A stretch of DNA of 64,000 bases, taken from assembly GCA_963855995.1 (NCBI GenBank), contig OY979716.1, positions 22,744,283 through 22,808,282 of the forward strand, given 5' to 3'. The notes below the pieces were generated by a model. That model was not told the DNA's origin, searched no databases, and was given only the letters and a program-made list of their open reading frames with translations. This document shows, in pieces, positions 3,382-45,876 of the stretch (position 1 is its first letter; the number at the start of each line of letters is the position of its first letter). Source of the stretch: Muricea muricata (lineage: Eukaryota; Cnidaria; Anthozoa; Malacalcyonacea; Plexauridae). The translations under genes were made by a program, and so were the position numbers.

Positions 3382-3432
3382 ATGAACGTTTACTGTACAA
3401 TGAACATTGACAAAGATATCTTTCCGCTTTAG
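3382..3432 (+). promoter_or_regulatory. Upstream ORF abutting the start codon of paralogue B
   Basis: Sixteen codons from ATG 3382 to TAG 3430-3432, one base before the main ATG at 3434. Length and stop position match paralogue A, with a few amino-acid changes. Confidence 0.45.
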
Positions 3433-3433
3433 A

Positions 3434-6149
3434 ATGGCGCTTGAAGGTAAACAACTTGCTGCAATGACATCTTTTCAAGCAGACTTGAAAGAATCAAGCA
3501 ATTTTCAAAAAATTGCAAACTATTTGATGAACTTATCCCCCACGGTATTTAAAAAGTTAAGTTCAAAACTTGACCGGAATTTGACAGAGGACACCGATGC
3601 ACGCGGACGCATCATAGACCTCGAAAATGAAAAGGAAGCTAGCAGCTCGTCGGAGAACGAAGATGACGAAACACATCGTCTTCAAGAAGTTTTTAAAAGA
3701 CTTTTTAAGGATGACAATAATAGTGTGACATTTGAACTTTTCACGAAACTTTTATCGTTTCCACTAAATATATTCCGTGGGCCGACCAAAGTGATTTACA
3801 CTCCAAGTTCAACTTACGAGAACATCAAAGCAAAACTTATACAATGCGAGGACAACGGTGACTTCGAAGAATTCGACACATATGCCAACAAAATGGTGGA
3901 GCAATATCTTGAAGAGAAAGACTACGATATTGTCGCGGGCGTCAAAATAGAGCAAGCACGATGTGCACTTTATAGAAACGACTTGAACTGGGCTAAACAA
4001 CTTGCCCGTGAAGCTCACGAACTCGCGGAGCACACGCGTTTTCCGCCGCTTTTTCATGCACAAGCTTGGCTCATGATGAGTTCGCTCTCTCGAACAAGAC
4101 GCAAGTTAGGAAAAACGAAAAAATATTTGGACTTAGCTGAGCAATCGTTTGAGTCGGGCTACAGTTTAGAAGAACTCGCACATTTCCATGAATTGAAAGG
4201 CACCTATCTTGATAAGTTTCTTGGAATATCTGCCAAACCAGATGAGCAGGTGAAGGCACTTGCTCTGACCAATTTCCAGAAAATGGGCGAAATCGGTGCG
4301 CAAGATTCGCGACAGCGCGTGAGCGACAAACAACGATTTTACGCTATGACTAAAAGCGCACGAATTCTCTTGGATTCCACTTCATCGTTTGGACGGCGCG
4401 ACCGGATTGTGACGAAAGATTCTATTCGCCTCGCCGCGGAGTGCCTCGGGACAGTAAAGCGTGATCTCCTGAGCAATATACCACGTGGGTCCAAGATTCA
4501 GTTTCAATTGGTGGAAAGTGATCTGTATTACAGGCAAGGCAAGTTTGAAGATGCGATGGAATTGTTGAAGAAGTCTCTTGATGAGGCAATTGAATTTGGA
4601 TATGGAAAAGAAGCACCAAAAATAACACAGGTAGTATCGGGAGAGGGGCGGTGCTTTTAGTTTGATCTAACTTCGTATGCTTTCTTCTACAAAATTTATA
4701 CTTGATCATGATCCAGAAATAGGTAGTTACACTGGACACTGCATCTGCATATCAGGTCTCATGGAGTGTCATAATGTTAATTAATTTTAGGTTTGCTCGT
4801 GTAGTAACTAGTAACACTGGATGTGAAGCTAGTGTAGCTTTCCTTCCGAAGTAACATTGGTTCAATAAGAGATGACGCTTACTGAACATCTAATTGCACG
4901 AACAATAGACATCTCGGTTAGATTGCTTCACTTTTAAGAATTTATATAGGTTTACTTGTACCGGCAGAATCGGATCATGCAATAAGCGATGCTGCGTACA
5001 TGAAACTCCAATTGCACGAACAATAGACATCTCATTTAGATTGTCCTCGCGAACTAGCATATTACTTTAGTTATACGGGCAGGATCAATATAAGAGATGA
5101 CGTTTACGTATACTGGGCTTCAGTTCAGAAGTGATATAGGGCTATCTGTTGTCTAAACAATACGTCTGCTGAGGCGCTCACTCCGGGGGAGCCGGGTAGG
5201 ATCACCTTTTCATGTTTTACCAAGGAATACCTCTCGAAATCAGTTGTTATAAGGGTTGACCCTAACAGAAATTAGTAACTCGATGAGCTATAATGTACCG
5301 CAATGCCTCTTATGGGACATTGTGTTGAAAACCACAACGTTTGTTTTAAAAGTTGAATGAATGCATGAAAACGATTATTTCTTAAAATTTGGAAGTGATT
5401 TGCAATGATGAATTATTTATCGATTTCACCTACTTAATTCGTCAATAGACAATAGTTTTGACAACATTAATAGACAACATTCTATTCATAGTCTACTGTT
5501 CATGGCATTAGCTGTAATAGTATTGGCAAGAAATTACTTTACACATAACACTAACATTTAAGCTAGTTATGGATATGCATGTAACATTAAGATTCATAGC
5601 CTCAAATTGAAGTGGGCATTTATGTCAATCAATCTTAATTAGACATTCAAAGGTATGAAAAGCATTCACACACTTCAATGACTTTTCATAATAAAGTGCC
5701 GTAGCCTAAAGAGGAAGAAAAGATAGCAATTCCATCACATCATTTCTGTTTGATGCTCTATGCAATAATTTAAGGGGCTAGGCTGTTTACATGAGACAGG
5801 CGAGCCTGGTTACCAGGATGATTTGTGTCACTAATATCTTTCTCTCTGACAAGAGACAAGTTAGACGATGATGAGTTGTTGGATGAGTAAGAGATGATGC
5901 TGACTGGACACCTTAGCTAGAAGAATAGCAGTTTAGAAATGATGCAGCTGTCGTTTGTAAATCCACTTTCCAGTATTTTTTTTCATTCTCTTTCAGCGTA
6001 TCAAAGATATCGATCGTCTTATGAATGCGAAAATTGACATTGTTGATGACAATTCATTAGAGCGACAAAGTAGCAGCAGTTCGAGTTGTCATGAGAGTGA
6101 AACGTCACAAAGTGGAAGCGATGTATTCAGTTCAGAATTTTTGTACTAA
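3434..6149 (+). CDS. Paralogue B: two-exon TPR-like helical-repeat protein, unknown function
   Basis: Coding exons are 3434-4630 and 5997-6149. Exon 1 ends ACACAG|GTAGTA. Exon 2 follows a pyrimidine-rich CTCTTTCAG. The phase-0 join gives 449 residues. The start is the first in-frame ATG, in good context (A at -3, G at +4). The N-terminal 110 residues are helical with an acidic Ser-rich insert near 66-85. From about residue 170 there are amphipathic helix pairs resembling TPR or related alpha-solenoid repeats: ARCALYRNDLNWAKQLAREA, then QAWLMMSSLSRTRRKLGKTK, and near the exon end DLYYRQGKFEDAMELLKKSL. The exon-2 tail is Ser-rich (six consecutive Ser) and acidic. A scaffold role is plausible from the fold, but I do not recognise a named family. 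A poly(A) signal AATAAA lies at 6695-6700. Confidence 0.75.
4866..5130 (+). repeat. Imperfect tandem duplication in intron of paralogue B
   Basis: A unit of about 120 bp occurs twice. Each copy contains ATTGCACGAACAATAGACAT followed by CTC and a TTAGATTG, and AAGAGATGACG(C/T)TTAC flanks the pair at both ends. Confidence 0.6.
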
Positions 6150-26023: not shown

Positions 26024-26030
26024 GTATTTC
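26024..26030 (+). repeat. Target-site duplication, left, of the P element
   Basis: GTATTTC, repeated exactly at 31949-31955. Confidence 0.85.
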
Positions 26031-26241
26031 CACAGTTAATGGAAGAAGACTGGTTAGGCTAGCCGGCAAACTTCAAAGGAACCGCAAATTTATGTTGAGA
26101 ACACGAAACAATTATGTCACGTGACCAGTATCGTGCATGATGCAAATGGCGATGCTATAAATTAGAGTGTCAAATTACAATAGCGCTGTATGAAATCCGA
26201 TATAATTTCGTAACTTGTTGCTTAAATGTCATGAAAACACT

Positions 26242-27501
26242 ATGGAGAGTGAAATAGAACTTGAACAAGAATACGACTTGCCTAAAGAGGAGGATGCGGA
26301 GGTTTCGGAGCCAGAAATTGTTGCTGAAGACGTGGAGTTCGAAATGCCAAGTGACTCGATCGACCATACATCGTACAACCTTGATGTTTCTGTTGCTGTT
26401 GTCGATACGGAAAGCGACGAAGTCGATGCTGAATTTGTCGAGGCAATGACCGAAATTGAAGGTAAAAAGTCGTTTCCCTGCCCCCACTGCCCAAAGATCT
26501 GCAAGTCAAAAGGAGGTTTGACGAAACATACAAATTCTAAGCACCGTGGTGTTGTCGATACGCCTTCCAGCACAACAAAATCTGCCGAACAGGAAACGCA
26601 TCTTTCGGAAGAAAATTTGGCTTCTATTGTCGAAGAAATTAAAACAAAACTATTAAAAGAAGACTTGTTTGGATCTGACATAAATTCTGCTCTCAAGAAG
26701 ATCTCGTCAAGTAAGGCGTTGTTTGATGCTGTGTTACCTATATACAACAAGTTTTGCCGCAAGAAAAATCAGGACAAAATGTTAGAAGATTTTTACGGGT
26801 TATTGCCCATAAAGCCCAGCACATTTTTGGACTGCACAGACGGAAATGTTGCAAATTTAGTAATGATTGAAATTCCGGACCGCCTCGTTGGGTTTTTCAA
26901 GATTGCTCGATCTCGAGAAGAAGCAAGCAATTATCCAACACAATCGGTAAAAAGCGCTGTCGAAATTGATGCCGCCGAACGTGGTCCCCTTTCTTATATA
27001 GCAGGATATATTGTTTCAAAAATGCATCAAAAATCCAGAAACAAAAAGGGCTCATGCAACGAAGAACTACAGACACTGGTGCGCTCTTTGAAGTCAAGCG
27101 AAAGTGCAAATAGCTTTATTTCTGCTCGTAACAGAGGAGGCCTTGTAGCGCCTTGTGAGGGTTTGCTTGGCATTCTGGAAGAAGCAGAGATTTTGTTTAG
27201 AAAACATGTTGGCACGGGCGATATTACCGACACTATTAGAAATATTCCCATAGACACAATATGTGTCTTAACGTTAGATTCTCCTCTTGTCAAGTCGTTG
27301 TGGCATAACATTGTACTAGACTCTGGAGTAGAAAAGTCGTGTCCTACCCAGAAATTGCTTTTAGAAAATATTGTAAAGTTATACTTGAGGGTGCGATCGT
27401 TTTCTTATGCAAAAGACTACATAAGCAAGTATAAAATAAGAGGAAAACAAACGAAGTCTAAATCCGTTAGAAAAGACTTAAAACGAAGAAAGGACTCGTA
27501 A
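26242..27501 (+). CDS. P-element second gene: C2H2 zinc finger plus YIAGY-type domain
   Basis: A single open frame of 419 residues from ATG 26242 (A at -3, G at +4). The N-terminus (1-75) is strongly acidic. A C2H2 finger lies at 80-101 (CPHC … LTKHTNSKH, spacing C-X2-C-X12-H-X4-H). Residues 120-230 are helical. PLSYIAGYIVSKM (249-261) resembles the YIAGY motif in C-terminal parts of P/THAP9-like and some hAT transposases. Two further blocks follow, GGLVAPCEGLLGILEEAE and LYLRVRSFSYAKDYISKYK, and a basic tail. AATAAA is at 27712. It starts about 180 bp inside the left terminal repeat and converges on the transposase. I infer a DNA-binding partner of transposition. No catalytic triad is visible, so it is not itself a transposase. 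Confidence 0.8.
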   Translation: MESEIELEQEYDLPKEEDAEVSEPEIVAEDVEFEMPSDSIDHTSYNLDVSVAVVDTESDEVDAEFVEAMTEIEGKKSFPCPHCPKICKSKGGLTKHTNSKHRGVVDTPSSTTKSAEQETHLSEENLASIVEEIKTKLLKEDLFGSDINSALKKISSSKALFDAVLPIYNKFCRKKNQDKMLEDFYGLLPIKPSTFLDCTDGNVANLVMIEIPDRLVGFFKIARSREEASNYPTQSVKSAVEIDAAERGPLSYIAGYIVSKMHQKSRNKKGSCNEELQTLVRSLKSSESANSFISARNRGGLVAPCEGLLGILEEAEILFRKHVGTGDITDTIRNIPIDTICVLTLDSPLVKSLWHNIVLDSGVEKSCPTQKLLLENIVKLYLRVRSFSYAKDYISKYKIRGKQTKSKSVRKDLKRRKDS

Positions 27502-27776
27502 GTTATTCAATTAATAGTAATTAGCAAAACCTCAAGAACTGTTTACTGAACATTTAAGTATATAGAAGTATGAACATTAATAACTATTTCACCTTGTTAC
27601 TTGTGCTTATTCTATTAAGACAACGTTTTGTTTAAACAAAAGACCTATTCCATAGAACAAAACATTACACATTGGAACAACTGAAATTATCTTGCAAAAT
27701 ATTCATTGAAGAATAAAAAGTATATTTTGAATATTGCGCATTCACTTTTAGCTGTTCTATACTGTATACTGTCTAG

Positions 27777-28138
27777 CAGGGATGCCAGAACTGGGGGGGG
27801 GGCAAGAGGGGCAGCTGCCCCCCTTGCCTTTTGCTGGGAGGGGCAAAAGTGCCCTTTAGGTATAAAGAATATTATATAACAGTTAGTTTTCAAGAAGCCT
27901 TTAGTTAGTGAAAATAAAACTCGCTGTGGCACTGTCAATTGAAAAAATCTGACTCATGTTGATATCTAATGTGATAGCAGATGCTATCCTAAGAATATGA
28001 TTGGTAAGAATTTGGTGCAAGAAGAATGCAACTGACCCTCTAAATTCCAGGGTATGGATTTTAACATAATTAGAATTTTGTTGGTGCCCTTCAACAAAGT
28101 CTGCCCCCCCTGGCCCTTTTCACGTTCCGGCGTCCCTG
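27777..28138. mobile_element. hAT-type MITE nested in the P element
   Basis: Starts CAGGGATGCCAGAAC and ends in the matching inverted GTTCCGGCGTCCCTG. It is flanked by a perfect 8-bp duplication CTGTCTAG (27769-27776 and 28139-28146). A CAGGG end with an 8-bp duplication is the hAT signature. It has no coding capacity. The left subterminal part has G- and C-runs able to pair with each other. Confidence 0.85.
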
Positions 28139-28146
28139 CTGTCTAG

Positions 28147-28900
28147 GGTTAAAACAATTTGAAATAGAACCACCATATTTACCATGATGTACACAGCTTA
28201 CAGGATTGCTGACATAATGACACAAATAAAGTACGAATTTTTTTTACCTATGATATATAACCCTGTAAATACAAATTGTTCAATCTGTCCATTTTTTGCT
28301 AGACTTGTCAATAATTCACATCTAATAAAACTTTGCAATATATGACAATGTTTTTGGAATCCTATACCTGACATTGTAGAAGATCAAGATTTTTTTGCCT
28401 GCATGCAGTGTAGTCGTATCAGTTTTGACACACCAGATTTGCTATGCCAAATTGTGAACCCCGCCTGCCTATTTACTCCAGCTATTCTTATTTTTTGAGT
28501 TAACAGTCTGCAAAAACAATCAATTTCTGAAGAAATTATTACTTAATTGAATTTTACATAGCTGGAGTAGAAAAAAAGGCTGGCTTTGCCACTCACCATG
28601 CCAAATGTAGCAAGAAATAAATTTGAATTATACCTGACCACATTTTATTCCAACCCTAATATCTATATGGTATGGCTGGAAGTTATGGTTATCAACTTAT
28701 GTTATGGCAACAGTTAATGTAAGGTGTTGGGGATAGAATCATACTGGAGACCCAAACATGAATTGATTAACAAAATTGTATCACAAGACAAAGCAATAAA
28801 TAGCCCGCCCACTGAGCACATTTATGCAATCAAATAGAATAATAAAACAAATGTACTCAGTTAGCAAGTTAAATATTACAGTAAAATTATAAAATGTAGT
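28147..28900. other. Region between the convergent P-element genes
   Basis: AT-rich sequence with no gene; probably 3' UTRs. A weak inverted pair of AGCCAGC/GGCAT-type words is present near 28440-28600, but no clear element. Confidence 0.4.
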
Positions 28901-31728
28901 TTACTTCTTTTTTCGTTTATGGACAGGTTCATTGCTAACATTGTGCCACTTCACTTTTTCATACCGTCCACCAGTATTACCCCTAATTACTGGAGCAATG
29001 TCTCGCTGGGCAGCAATCGTCAGGTCATTGTATCCAAATTGATGAGCAGATGGATTGTCTGATCTTCTACCTCTCTCTCTTTGGTGTCCAAAGTAATCTT
29101 CGAGGACATCTTGCATGAACCTCTCAGTAAGCACGTACTGGAATCCCACAGACAACAAAAATTTGACAACTTCAATATGAGAGTAGACTGCAATCTTTAA
29201 ACCCTCATATGTTTGTGCTGAAAGAAACATTCTCTGTCTAGCATCAGCAGAAAAATCTCCATCTCGGTTGAGAGTACTCTTTTTCCATGTCTCAAGGTAG
29301 TTGAGGAACATGTCTTTCAGCCAAGTAAAGCGATAGTCCTCAGGTGTAGTATATGGCATAATGAATGGATTATTCTTCTGGCTATGTTCAGTCAGTGACC
29401 TCACATTAGTGCAGTCAAAAAATCCATTCATCATGTCACAGAAATCGGCTGTGCCACTAACATCATCATCTTCGGTTTCTCTCAGGCCAATAGCAACTGA
29501 CTTGCTCAGGATCTGGACTGCAAGCTTGACCTTCATCTTGCTGTAGGGTGTCAAAACAATATGCTCCAAGGTCAGCTTTGGTAGCGTATGCAGTGCAAAT
29601 TCTTGATCGCTGTAGAAAAGGTCTGCTATATGCCGGAATAGCACATACTTTCCGTTATTCCACATAAGACGACTTCGACTCCCAGACCCAGAATTGTAAA
29701 GACAGTTCCTTGCAGTCTTCAGTAGATGTGGTGAATCTGCAAAAAAGAAAATGAATCGCGATGGTGCATAAATGTTTGGTGTTTTATACACTACATCACA
29801 ATCCACATCTTTGGCCAGCTTAGAATGTAGGCGGAAGAATTTCCGGTTGGGCGAGGCACCATCATTTACTGCAGCACACACATGAAGATTCAGGGACACC
29901 TCCAAAACAGCAACAGTTCTCCAGAATAGAGGCATTATCTGGTAGGATGTGACATTTCCTGTGAAGAAATATGCAATGATATGCTTCAAATCAGTGCATA
30001 ATCCCCTCACAAGAAATGCCAAGGCGTGGGATGCAATGGGATCCTCATCTTCATTAGAGAGACTAGCAAAGTTAGTCATCGGATCTCCTAGGTCGATAAA
30101 TCCAACTAGATCTCCAGAAACTTTGTCGAAGACAAGGTTAGCCTGGATTTTCATTTCATCCATTATGATTGCTACATATTTTTGGACTGTTGAAAAGGAG
30201 GAGGTTTTCTCACGAAGACTTTCGACATTATCTTTACTGATGCCAGGTTTCGGTTTAAAATAATTCTTGTAGTCCCGAAGAACTCGCTCGCTCGGCAGAA
30301 TAAGGGCACCACTGTCTCGTAATTCTCTGTAGGCAGATGGGGATTTGCTATGGATAGAAAGAGCAAATCGTATCACTTGTGGGTGGTATCTTCTTCCCAT
30401 TTTAGATGACTGTAAAAGCTTCATTTGCTCTTGCCAAAAGAACTTCATGTGTGGAGTTGCCTCAAGGCTTTGTCCTCCCATTATTGTCAGAATGTCCTTC
30501 TCAAGGGCTTCACTAACACCAATGCCATGTTGCTCAATCTTCCTTTGGAGTTCTTGAAGGCGATCCTCAAGGTCTTTAACCTGGAGTCTTGATGACACAA
30601 CAGTTGCTCTCAACTTCTCAGGGCCACAAGCAGACAATGGTGCTCTAGGTTTAGCTGGAGCAGCAGAGGATTTGCTCTTAGCCTTTGCAGCTCTTTTTAC
30701 TGCATTCAAAGCAGACATACAAACTTTGCATGACTTCATTGAATGTTCAGTACCAGTGAGAACTTGGCAACCAACTGCCCGGTATGTAAGGGATACTCCA
30801 AAATAAGGGTCTTCAACTCCAATGGATTTGGGCACAGAATGCCGAACAATTGATGTAGGACTTGGACCTGGCATTTCAGTGGGGTCAACAGCATGCAATG
30901 GACATGACTTCAAACCTGACCTCCCCATCCTCTGCCAAGCCATCACAAACTGCAGAACTTTCGATCCATCTCAACAGATCTACAACATCAATATTCTTAA
31001 CAGAACGCTTGTTTTCCTTGTACAATGGATTCTCGTCAGGAACAGGCCAATGAAAAACAAATACAGTGAATTCCAGTGCAGAATTCACAACAACAGTGTA
31101 TTTCGAAATGTCATGAATACTGTCAGTCAGTTCTATTCGCATTTCCTCTTCGTTTGAAGTCCCTAATTGCCAAGGTTCAATGTCTTCCTGCTGCAAGCGA
31201 ACAGCGAGTTCCTTAATTGATTGCACTGGGACTTTTGAAGTTGACGCCGTGTCTTGCGCTGGAATTTCAGGCTCCTTTCGCACGAGTTTTCGGCGCTCGC
31301 GTTTGGGTAATTCGTGGCTTCTTTCAGGCAGTCTTTCAGTGGGAACACTGCCAGTAATCAACGTTTTTCTTACTCCTGAAATATGTAAATTTTTGCTTGT
31401 TCAGCCGAATAATTAATAATGAGCAAACACACGCTTTCTATGTAAATACTATCGAGAATAAAATCAGAAAATACGTACCCGTTAAAATACATTCTTGCTT
31501 AAAATGAAGCTCACAGATATAAATATTGTTAGCGTCAATCCTTTTCTGTAATTCAGGAGTCGATTCTCTCGTTCGTAAAATTAAACGAAGCCATTCTGCT
31601 CGCGCATTTTGCTTCAATGATTTCGTATGATCGCTGTCTGAGGCAGCGACAGTAGGAATTCTAAAGAGCGAAAGTTTATGTCTTCTACTCGTCGAACACC
31701 CGTAAAAAGCGCAGTTTGAACCAGGCAT
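28901..31728 (-). CDS. THAP-domain P-element transposase (THAP9-like)
   Basis: Exon 1 is 31479-31728, ATG at 31728, donor G|GTACGT. Exon 2 starts at 31375 after TTTCAG. The phase-1 join is clean. Exon 1 is a THAP zinc finger: C6, C11, FRIP at 22-25, W46, C72-x2-H75; the C11-C72 gap of 60 residues is longer than usual. The frame then changes by one near 30,900 and continues as a 681-codon block to 28901. In that block's numbering there is a coiled coil at 115-145. RNase H-like acids are D263 (IMDEM) and D362 (NDGASPNRKF). ADSPHLLKTARN (403-414) opens the insertion domain. QDVLEDYFGHQRERG … DNP (612-631) is the C-terminal RNase H block. The fourth candidate acid lies in DFCDMMNGFFD (501-511). 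It ends soon afterwards in a basic tail, shorter than full-length relatives. Confidence 0.85.
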
Positions 31729-31948
31729 TACATCTCCCGGTGTTGATCGAGTGGTTAAAAGCCTTGAAAGTAAGATTATCTACGAAAAACAGCCTCGAGT
31801 GTGCGACAACAATGATTACATTGTTATTTGTATATGAGCTTTCAGCATCGATGCACGATATTGATCACGTGACCAAAATAAAAAGTGAACAATAACATAT
31901 TTTGTGACGTCACTGGCTAGCCTAACCAGTCTTCTTCCATTAACTGTG

Positions 31949-31955
31949 GTATTTC
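31949..31955 (+). repeat. Target-site duplication, right, of the P element
   Basis: GTATTTC, matching 26024-26030. Confidence 0.85.
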
Positions 31956-39552: not shown

Positions 39553-40782
39553 TTTAAACTATAAAGAAAACAAAACTAATAACAGAAATTAACAGAAAAG
39601 AAAGTAAAATATGTAATGTGACAGGAAAGTCTAACTACTCATCAACTCTATATGGAGAAGTTATGCAGAAATACACACAAAGTTTAGTGTGTTTTTCGCG
39701 ATGATTTAGTAATTGAATTTAATATGCTTGAATGATAATAAGGCGCCTTGTTCTTATGGCTTCTGTAAATAGGCAGAGAAATTGTGCACTTTAGATTTAA
39801 AATATGCATTATTTTTCGAGTTCGGATCTGTAATCGACGTTCCTAGACAAATTAAGGTCATTTAATTGTAGAACAGGACAAACTGCTTAAATAACAATAA
39901 AGTTCAAAAGTCTATTTTTGGAACCCAAGTTTAACCCCCGTGACCATTGTTATTGTTGTGTGGAAGTACCACCAAATTAAATGACTTACGGCTGTATTGC
40001 TGAACACTCCACATGTGATTGAAGACTGGACAATTTTGACAATATAATAGTTACTTGAACTTTTCAAGGTTACTACGTGTGCAAGTCTGATATGTTTGTT
40101 TTGAAATAATTCGCAATGAATACGCTCGAAAACTATATCGTGTACAAGTGGCCAGAACCATCATTATTTATAACAATGAACACTTACTCTACAATGAACA
40201 TTGACCAAGATATCTTTCCGCTTTAGAATGGCACTTGAAAGTAAACAGCTTGCTGCAATAACATCTTTTCAAGCAGACTTGAAAGAATCAAGCCATTTTC
40301 AAAAATTTGCAAACTATCTAATGAACTTATCCCCCAAGGTATTTAAAAAGTTGAGTTCAAAACTTGACCGGAATTTGACAGAGGACACCGATGCACGCGG
40401 ACGCATCATAGACCTCGAAAATGAAAACGAACCTAGCAGCTCGTTGGAGAGCGAAGATGACGAAACAGATCATCTTCAAGAAGTTTTTAAAACACTTTTT
40501 AAGGATGACAATACTAGTGTAACATTTGAACTTTTCACGAAACTTTTATCGTTTCCACTAAATATATTCCGTGGGCCGACCAAAGTCATTTACACTCCAA
40601 GTTCAACCTACGAGAACATCAAGGCAAAACTTTTACAATGCGAAGACAACGGTGACTTCGAAGAATTCGACACATATGCCAACAAAATGGTGGAGCAATA
40701 TCTCGAAGAGAAAGACTTCGATATTGTTGCGGGCGTCAAAATAGAGCAAGTACGATGTGCAATTTATGGAAACGACTTGAAC
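39553..40782 (+). repeat. Segment A of the A/B duplication (second unit, complete)
   Basis: Homologous to B at 42,479-43,715 and 2,752-3,988, from AAACTATAA(A/C)GAAAAC to the breakpoint in the coding frame. Confidence 0.9.
40176..40226 (+). promoter_or_regulatory. Upstream ORF of paralogue A (second unit)
   Basis: Same as 449-499; stop one base before the main ATG at 40228. Confidence 0.45.
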
Positions 40783-40812
40783 AAGACTAGTAGATTACCC
40801 TCCCCCATATAG
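40228..40812 (+). pseudogene. Paralogue A, truncated (second unit)
   Basis: Translation identical to 501-1085. Confidence 0.7.
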
Positions 40813-42478: not shown

Positions 42479-43715
42479 AACTATAACGAAAACAAAACTA
42501 ATAGTAATAACAGAAATTAACAGAAAAGAAAGTAAAATATATAATGTGACAGGCAAGTTTAACTACTCATCAACTCTATATGGAGAAGTTATGCAGAAAT
42601 ACTCACAAAGTTTAGTGATGTTTTTCTCGATGATTCAGTGATTGAATTTAATATGCTTGAATAATAATAAGGTGTCTTGTTCTTATGGCTTCTGTAAATA
42701 GGCAGAGAAATTATGCATTTTAGATTTAAAATATGCATTATTTTTTGAATTCGGATGTGTAATCGACGTTCCTAGACAAATTAAGGTCATTTAATTGTAG
42801 AACAGGACAAACTGTTTGAATAACAATAAAGTTCAAAAGTCCATTTTTCAAGGAACCTAAGTTTAACCCCGTGACCCTTGTTATTGTTGTGTGGAAGTAC
42901 CACCAAATTAAATGACTTACAGCTGTATTGCTGAACACTCCACATGTGATTGAAGACTGGACAATTTTGGCAATATAATAGTAACTTGAACTTTTCAAGG
43001 TTACTACGTGTGCAAGTCTGATATGTTTGTTTTGAAATAATTCGCAATGAATACGCTCGGAAACTACATCGTGTACACGTGGCCAGAACCGTCATTATTT
43101 ATATAACAATGAACGTTTACTGTACAATGAACATTGACAAAGATATCTTTCCGCTTTAGAATGGCGCTTGAAGGTAAACAACTTGCTGCAATGACATCTT
43201 TTCAAGCAGACTTGAAAGAATCAAGCAATTTTCAAAAAATTGCAAACTATTTGATGAACTTATCCCCCACGGTATTTAAAAAGTTAAGTTCAAAACTTGA
43301 CCGGAATTTGACAGAGGACACCGATGCACGCGGACGCATCATAGACCTCGAAAATGAAAAGGAAGCTAGCAGCTCGTCGGAGAACGAAGATGACGAAACA
43401 CATCGTCTTCAAGAAGTTTTTAAAAGACTTTTTAAGGATGACAATAATAGTGTGACATTTGAACTTTTCACGAAACTTTTATCGTTTCCACTAAATATAT
43501 TCCGTGGGCCGACCAAAGTGATTTACACTCCAAGTTCAACTTACGAGAACATCAAAGCAAAACTTATACAATGCGAGGACAACGGTGACTTCGAAGAATT
43601 CGACACATATGCCAACAAAATGGTGGAGCAATATCTTGAAGAGAAAGACTACGATATTGTCGCGGGCGTCAAAATAGAGCAAGCACGATGTGCACTTTAT
43701 AGAAACGACTTGAAC
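42479..43715 (+). repeat. Segment B of the A/B duplication (second unit)
   Basis: Identical to 2752-3988. Confidence 0.9.
43109..43159 (+). promoter_or_regulatory. Upstream ORF of paralogue B (second unit)
   Basis: Same as 3382-3432; stop one base before the main ATG at 43161. Confidence 0.45.
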
Positions 43716-45876
43716 TGGGCTAAACAACTTGCCCGTGAAGCTCACGAACTCGCGGAGCACACGCGTTTTCCGCCGCTTTTTCATGCACAAGCTTGGCTCA
43801 TGATGAGTTCGCTCTCTCGAACAAGACGCAAGTTAGGAAAAACGAAAAAATATTTGGACTTAGCTGAGCAATCGTTTGAGTCGGGCTACAGTTTAGAAGA
43901 ACTCGCACATTTCCATGAATTGAAAGGCACCTATCTTGATAAGTTTCTTGGAATATCTGCCAAACCAGATGAGCAGGTGAAGGCACTTGCTCTGACCAAT
44001 TTCCAGAAAATGGGCGAAATCGGTGCGCAAGATTCGCGACAGCGCGTGAGCGACAAACAACGATTTTACGCTATGACTAAAAGCGCACGAATTCTCTTGG
44101 ATTCCACTTCATCGTTTGGACGGCGCGACCGGATTGTGACGAAAGATTCTATTCGCCTCGCCGCGGAGTGCCTCGGGACAGTAAAGCGTGATCTCCTGAG
44201 CAATATACCACGTGGGTCCAAGATTCAGTTTCAATTGGTGGAAAGTGATCTGTATTACAGGCAAGGCAAGTTTGAAGATGCGATGGAATTGTTGAAGAAG
44301 TCTCTTGATGAGGCAATTGAATTTGGATATGGAAAAGAAGCACCAAAAATAACACAGGTAGTATCGGGAGAGGGGCGGTGCTTTTAGTTTGATCTAACTT
44401 CGTATGCTTTCTTCTACAAAATTTATACTTGATCATGATCCAGAAATAGGTAGTTACACTGGACACTGCATCTGCATATCAGGTCTCATGGAGTGTCATA
44501 ATGTTAATTAATTTTAGGTTTGCTCGTGTAGTAACTAGTAACACTGGATGTGAAGCTAGTGTAGCTTTCCTTCCGAAGTAACATTGGTTCAATAAGAGAT
44601 GACGCTTACTGAACATCTAATTGCACGAACAATAGACATCTCGGTTAGATTGCTTCACTTTTAAGAATTTATATAGGTTTACTTGTACCGGCAGAATCGG
44701 ATCATGCAATAAGCGATGCTGCGTACATGAAACTCCAATTGCACGAACAATAGACATCTCATTTAGATTGTCCTCGCGAACTAGCATATTACTTTAGTTA
44801 TACGGGCAGGATCAATATAAGAGATGACGTTTACGTATACTGGGCTTCAGTTCAGAAGTGATATAGGGCTATCTGTTGTCTAAACAATACGTCTGCTGAG
44901 GCGCTCACTCCGGGGGAGCCGGGTAGGATCACCTTTTCATGTTTTACCAAGGAATACCTCTCGAAATCAGTTGTTATAAGGGTTGACCCTAACAGAAATT
45001 AGTAACTCGATGAGCTATAATGTACCGCAATGCCTCTTATGGGACATTGTGTTGAAAACCACAACGTTTGTTTTAAAAGTTGAATGAATGCATGAAAACG
45101 ATTATTTCTTAAAATTTGGAAGTGATTTGCAATGATGAATTATTTATCGATTTCACCTACTTAATTCGTCAATAGACAATAGTTTTGACAACATTAATAG
45201 ACAACATTCTATTCATAGTCTACTGTTCATGGCATTAGCTGTAATAGTATTGGCAAGAAATTACTTTACACATAACACTAACATTTAAGCTAGTTATGGA
45301 TATGCATGTAACATTAAGATTCATAGCCTCAAATTGAAGTGGGCATTTATGTCAATCAATCTTAATTAGACATTCAAAGGTATGAAAAGCATTCACACAC
45401 TTCAATGACTTTTCATAATAAAGTGCCGTAGCCTAAAGAGGAAGAAAAGATAGCAATTCCATCACATCATTTCTGTTTGATGCTCTATGCAATAATTTAA
45501 GGGGCTAGGCTGTTTACATGAGACAGGCGAGCCTGGTTACCAGGATGATTTGTGTCACTAATATCTTTCTCTCTGACAAGAGACAAGTTAGACGATGATG
45601 AGTTGTTGGATGAGTAAGAGATGATGCTGACTGGACACCTTAGCTAGAAGAATAGCAGTTTAGAAATGATGCAGCTGTCGTTTGTAAATCCACTTTCCAG
45701 TATTTTTTTTCATTCTCTTTCAGCGTATCAAAGATATCGATCGTCTTATGAATGCGAAAATTGACATTGTTGATGACAATTCATTAGAGCGACAAAGTAG
45801 CAGCAGTTCGAGTTGTCATGAGAGTGAAACGTCACAAAGTGGAAGCGATGTATTCAGTTCAGAATTTTTGTACTAA
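43161..45876 (+). CDS. Paralogue B: two-exon TPR-like helical-repeat protein (second unit)
   Basis: Exons 43161-44357 and 45724-45876 encode the same 449 residues as the first copy, with identical splice sites and intron. If the duplication is real, the genome has two indistinguishable copies of this gene; if it is an assembly duplication there is one. Confidence 0.7.
44593..44857 (+). repeat. Intron tandem duplication (second unit)
   Basis: Identical to 4866-5130. Confidence 0.6.

Follow-up and report, generated by a model that had tools for sequence, protein, structure and literature searches.

The stretch analysed here, 64,000 nucleotides of the Muricea muricata genome (assembly GCA_963855995.1, contig OY979716.1, positions 22,744,283 to 22,808,282; hereafter the window), harbours, at 26031-31948, a complete transposon 5,918 bp long. 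With a probability of roughly three in four, we take it to be a cut-and-paste transposon of the P superfamily in which two convergent genes each encode part of the transposase, the two proteins assembling in trans. The minus-strand gene would supply the THAP, helix-turn-helix (HTH)-like, RNase H and GTP-binding parts, and the plus-strand gene the missing C-terminal domain (CTD), preceded by a C2H2 finger and then by a helical middle region. The odds lean slightly towards the further proposal that in nature, and over a long period, a eukaryotic DDE-type transposase has been divided into two obligate subunits encoded on opposite strands, of which the CTD protein, with a zinc finger of its own, acts in trans.

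Two genes and the ends that enclose them

The minus-strand gene encodes the N-terminal part of the RNase H domain (PF21787, E = 6.5e-25) and the GTP-binding insertion (PF21788, E = 1.4e-17), together with a C-terminal RNase H part (PF21789, E = 0.01, below the family cut-off) and a putative HTH matched just below the cut-off (PF12017, E = 2e-4, 22.1 bits against 23), and its product matches the structure of the Drosophila P transposase (6p5a_A) with an E value of 5.8e-27. The residues of the DDE and D(2)H motifs are present in MDEMK, NDGASPNR, ADSPHLLK and LEDYF; the first, third and fourth of these align to the P transposase, and the second D, which lies outside the alignments, was assigned by motif. 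One or more of the four patterns are missing from 7 of the 16 transposase sequences compared, which are partial sequences or variants. A THAP match was present at the far end in 9 of ten further elements of the genome (none in L061); at the nine related loci these matches stop in five cases at residues 84-86, close to the exon boundary inferred here, and in the other four at residues 90-92. The AlphaFold model of the transposase, with a predicted local distance difference test (pLDDT) score of 44, was not used. The frame stops soon after the C-terminal RNase H part, and no CTD was found in this gene when all six frames of the window were searched at E <= 0.01, the CTD profile matching the plus-strand gene only.

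In the plus-strand gene, the sequence profile and the structure model of the encoded protein agree on exactly the domain that is missing from the partner gene, and the whole CTD, including its basic helix, is under constraint across the family. The finger residues C80, C83, H96 and H101 are invariant in all 12 aligned family members, and the middle region is modelled with pLDDT values of 81-90 in 10-residue blocks over residues 121-220, falling to 66 over residues 221-230. A canonical P transposase carries its CTD in the same protein, and the transposase gene here has none. The second gene is predicted, from sequence and model together, to encode a domain of the transposase itself, fused behind the finger and the middle region. 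No match to the C2H2 protein was obtained among phage records, and IMG/VR, searched with either protein, returned no relative.

Harbinger and MuDR elements encode an unrelated accessory factor as their second protein. The plus-strand product could be a factor of this kind, its likeness to a CTD being due to chance or to a common helical arrangement; single-sequence scores are indeed weak, and all-helical folds match easily. We regard this as very improbable in view of the agreement of profile and model on the one missing domain, and of the match of the same profile to CTDs encoded in cis elsewhere in this genome (see below).

The perfect inverted match at the ends of the element spans 35 nt (26030-26064 and 31915-31949), and since its outermost letter pair is part of the target duplication, the terminal inverted repeat (TIR) proper measures 34 bp. 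Its first 23 bases, with up to three mismatches allowed, are found at the two ends and nowhere else in the window, and 100 shuffled sequences gave no match, which rules out chance ends. The ten further elements, all read at both ends, carry perfect and mutually different 7-bp duplications in every case, and their TIRs agree at 28 to 33 of the 34 positions. As they were picked from listed loci with both genes, they test the ends and duplications and not the presence of two genes. Altogether, 13 of 13 elements (the window copy, L010, L017 and these ten, not counting the tandem duplicate L009) show a perfect 7-bp duplication, those of the 12 elements other than the window copy being distinct, with a leaning towards the palindromic GTYWRAC in which the second place is T in 12 of the 13 and the first place is weaker. 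Judged by the sequence of its catalytic domain, its THAP domain and its target duplication, the element is a member of the P superfamily. The original prediction, an earlier reading of the window, had described the 34-bp ends, the 7-bp duplication, the subterminal repeats and the minus-strand THAP/RNase H-like transposase correctly (Table 1). It was also right about a separate C2H2 gene on the opposite strand, which does encode one finger, and overlooked the CTD in the same frame.

Table 1. Features of the transposon, in window coordinates.
Feature	Positions	Strand	Remarks
Left target-site duplication	26024..26030	.	GTATTTC, 7 bp
Left terminal inverted repeat	26031..26064	+	34 bp, perfect
Left arm of subterminal inverted repeat	26116..26138	+	23 nt, 91%; 85 bp inside left end
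C2H2-CTD gene	26242..27501	+	419 aa, single open frame; start 211 bp inside left end
C2H2 zinc finger	26473..26544	+	aa 78-101; zf-C2H2 E = 7.5e-4, below Pfam cut-off
Helical middle region	26608..26931	+	aa about 123-230; no family assigned; AlphaFold model
Predicted P-transposase CTD	26956..27498	+	aa about 239-419; long basic helix at end
Transposase main frame	28901..30892	-	HTH-like, RNase H N, GTP-binding insertion, RNase H C; no CTD at end
Transposase exon 2, first part	30918..31375	-	frame interrupted before main frame in window copy
Putative GT-AG intron	31376..31478	-	103 nt; inferred from frame continuity
THAP exon	31479..31728	-	ATG at 31728; PF05485 E = 2.1e-8
Right arm of subterminal inverted repeat	31851..31873	-	23 nt, 91%; 75 bp inside right end
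Right terminal inverted repeat	31915..31948	-	34 bp, perfect
Right target-site duplication	31949..31955	.	GTATTTC

The two genes are inherited together

The genome holds at least 105 matches to the C2H2 protein and at least 73 to the transposase among the best candidates, and the matches listed merge into 97 and 65 loci, respectively. Among these listed matches, a C2H2-CTD gene lies tail to tail with the transposase gene within 9 kb at 43 of the 65 transposase loci, one locus has a same-strand C2H2 neighbour 7.2 kb away that is already paired with another transposase, and the remaining 21 have none. Six of these 21 were opened downstream: four contain a diverged convergent C2H2-CTD gene (24-44% identity) and two run into different DNA, Polinton-like by eye. 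A convergent C2H2 gene is thus present at 47 of the 65 loci, with 16 of the 65 unopened. Transposase remnants of the family at L049 and L051 adjoin clustered frames which by eye are of Polinton/adintovirus type (integrase, packaging ATPase, collagen-like and GIY-YIG-like).

Viewed from the C2H2 gene, 53 of the 97 loci have no transposase among the matches listed. The best 30 include 25 with a transposase and 23 with a TIR-like end that scores higher than any of 600 shuffled controls. When the threshold is set equal to the best of those controls, a TIR-like end just upstream, a convergent transposase gene, or both are present at 29 of the 30, the consensus having been read from these same loci. 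Of nine loci fetched by similarity to the end of the element, five hold both genes (one being the tandem duplicate), four (L011-L014) hold C2H2-gene sequence only, and none holds a transposase without C2H2-gene sequence.

Distances between transposases and between CTDs are strongly correlated across 16 elements (r = 0.905; none of 20,000 permutations as high), and the correlation persists without the four deepest elements (r = 0.733; 1 of 20,000). Both trees strongly support the groupings of the window copy with L017 and L022, of L031 with L038 (joined by L042), of L029 with L033, and of L048 with L050 and L053 (joined by L052). They disagree on inner branches, namely on which two of the window copy, L017 and L022 are closest, on the order within L048, L050 and L053, and on the weakly supported position of L036. 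The paired transposases diverge to about 50% identity. Between families, silent sites are saturated (proportion of differences, pS, 0.74-0.80), and the corresponding value for amino acid-changing sites (pN) in the C2H2 gene is 0.23-0.28; the ratio of the two substitution rates (dN/dS) is 0.18 in the one pair at moderate distance and ranges from 0.13 to 0.72 in seven very recent pairs with few changes. Between the window copy and L017, the transposase main frame, at a pN of 0.11, is more constrained than the C2H2 gene, at 0.23. The pair is therefore co-inherited and under purifying selection, and the split is conserved across a diverged family in this genome.

These data bear directly on whether the C2H2 gene is a captured host passenger. 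C2H2 fingers are common as host domains, and in canonical P transposases we found nothing corresponding to the finger and middle region. Nevertheless, we consider capture scarcely credible: the side and orientation of the gene are conserved at 47 of the 65 loci, the transposase and CTD trees agree, the gene shows CTD homology, and none of the nine end-fetched loci lacked its sequence. Nor, judging by 29 of its 30 best loci, does the gene occur mainly outside P elements, even though 53 of the 97 are without a listed transposase. The passenger reading was rejected on these grounds: the co-occurrence of the genes, the agreement of their trees and the homology of the CTD.

A regulator is harder to dismiss, although we hold it to be unlikely. 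The catalytic protein would then work alone, and the second protein would bind end or target DNA, or compete for the place of the CTD, as a repressor or helper. Excerpts of PMC7776569 describe truncated P proteins (the 66-kDa and KP forms) as repressors, C2H2-CTD loci outnumber transposase loci among the matches listed (97 versus 65), and four of the nine end-fetched loci have a match to the C2H2 gene but none to the transposase. Against a regulator stand the lack of a CTD in the catalytic gene itself, the contacts that the CTD of Drosophila makes with both DNAs during strand transfer, as seen in the complex (PMC7776569, in the same excerpts), the constraint on the whole CTD including the basic helix, and the lack of any transposase-only locus among those nine. 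L011-L014 themselves match the element end together with the C2H2 gene, none being shown with both ends; by analogy with Drosophila KP elements, they are possible derivatives that could act as repressors or parasites. The two-component system of the original prediction survives these comparisons, with self-regulation persisting as the regulator just described, yet its reason, two DNA-binding proteins in one element, misses the split transposase domain.

Unsplit relatives and known two-gene systems

The genome abounds in P-superfamily elements: matches to the GTP-binding domain are numerous (150 scored of 565 candidates), and they score 79 to 182 bits, compared with 64.7 for the window protein. 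Many of the 150 scored matches lie in open frames of 780-977 aa. Three loci chosen for long open frames (L078, L079 and L080) were read downstream of the GTP-binding domain, and in all three the frame continues from the C-terminal RNase H part through a linker into a CTD within one protein. In this small set, the CTDs are matched by the profile built on the split family with E values of 1.5e-10 to 1.7e-8; the THAP9_C family scores above its curated cut-off in L078 and below it in L080, and does not match L079. The 1.9 kb examined at each of the three loci gave no C2H2-CTD match on the opposite strand. With the CTD in the same protein at these loci, the genome contains the unsplit form alongside the split family, which deviates from it.

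The element shares with the Drosophila P transposase (PDB 6p5a/6pe2) a THAP domain, an RNase H domain interrupted by a GTP-binding domain, DDE/D(2)H residues and, as predicted, an all-helical CTD with a basic C-terminal helix. The Drosophila transposase is one protein, whereas here two genes on opposite strands are used, and the CTD is joined to a new middle region and a C2H2 finger. P elements generate an 8-bp target duplication, according to parts of PMC7776569 and PMC1562414, compared with 7 bp here. THAP9 and L078-L080 have in common with the split family the C-terminal RNase H and GTP-binding families and a profile-matched CTD, but in L078-L080 that CTD follows the RNase H part in frame. 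With its CTD outside the catalytic protein and a 7-bp duplication in place of 8 bp, the element, though of the P superfamily, is not a canonical single-gene P element or THAP9.

Galileo, a Drosophila member of the P superfamily, makes a 7- or 8-bp duplication with a palindromic preference (GTANTAC or GTATTAC; PMC4168063, in part). The duplication here is similarly 7 bp and palindrome-leaning, if more weakly so, and the 34-bp TIRs contrast with the long, internally repetitive TIRs of Galileo. RAG-like transposons have two convergent genes between TIRs, as described in excerpts of PMC7204232. The element resembles them in this layout and differs in its transposase family and in its duplication, which is 5 bp in RAG-like transposons. 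The RAG2L protein is not known to be a piece of the transposase itself, unlike the second protein here, which is predicted to be a transposase domain. A literature search that did not extend to Repbase and most subscription journals found no earlier two-gene or split P transposase.

State of the copies and a proposed mechanism for a divided transposase

In the window copy and its duplicate, a small indel puts exon 2 out of frame with the main transposase frame, as seen by comparison with L010 and L017, where they read through in a single frame. In L010, other breaks interrupt both genes; in L017, the main transposase frame (820 aa) and the C2H2-CTD frame (408 aa) are both open. With its transposase frame interrupted, the window copy may rely on other copies. 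Window positions 1-24273 and 39728-64000 are identical (24,273 bp visible at 100%), indicating an exact tandem duplication of 39,727 bp, which is either recent or an assembly duplicate. The second copy of the element (L009, G000:C1:22810040) lies inside this duplication, which explains its identity, and its flanks, target duplication included, match those of the first copy without a difference for 600 and 1,083 bp, ruling out two independent insertions. The duplication also contains a plus-strand 418-aa frame (3404-4660 and 43131-44387) and a shorter relative of 204 aa (471-1085 and 40198-40812), which together look like a repeated host gene family.

Excerpts of the account of the Drosophila strand transfer complex (PMC7776569) place the CTD on a disordered linker, between the RNase H domain and the GTP-binding domain of another subunit, where it contacts transposon and target DNA with its basic helix pointing to the target. 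Detachment is conceivable for a domain so flexibly tethered and docked on its neighbour. In the split transposase, the finger may take over from the linker between the CTD and the catalytic part by binding DNA or the partner protein. Expression of both genes would then be needed for transposition, a control point comparable to the P-element third intron, whose retention yields a 66-kDa repressor without the C-terminal third (PMC7776569, likewise in part); the same choice would be made here without splicing.

If the split transposase is real, the element would regulate its transposition by the ratio of two proteins and not by splicing, and derivatives keeping only the C2H2-CTD gene could control or parasitise it. 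Structures have shown the role of the P-transposase CTD, yet it is difficult to study apart from the remainder of the protein; here evolution would have made the separation, with both halves kept together through deep divergence and unsplit relatives in the same genome allowing comparison. The system would thereby allow direct tests of CTD action in trans, of the ways in which a DDE transposase can be divided, and of a possible origin of two-gene transposons by transposase fission as well as by gene capture.

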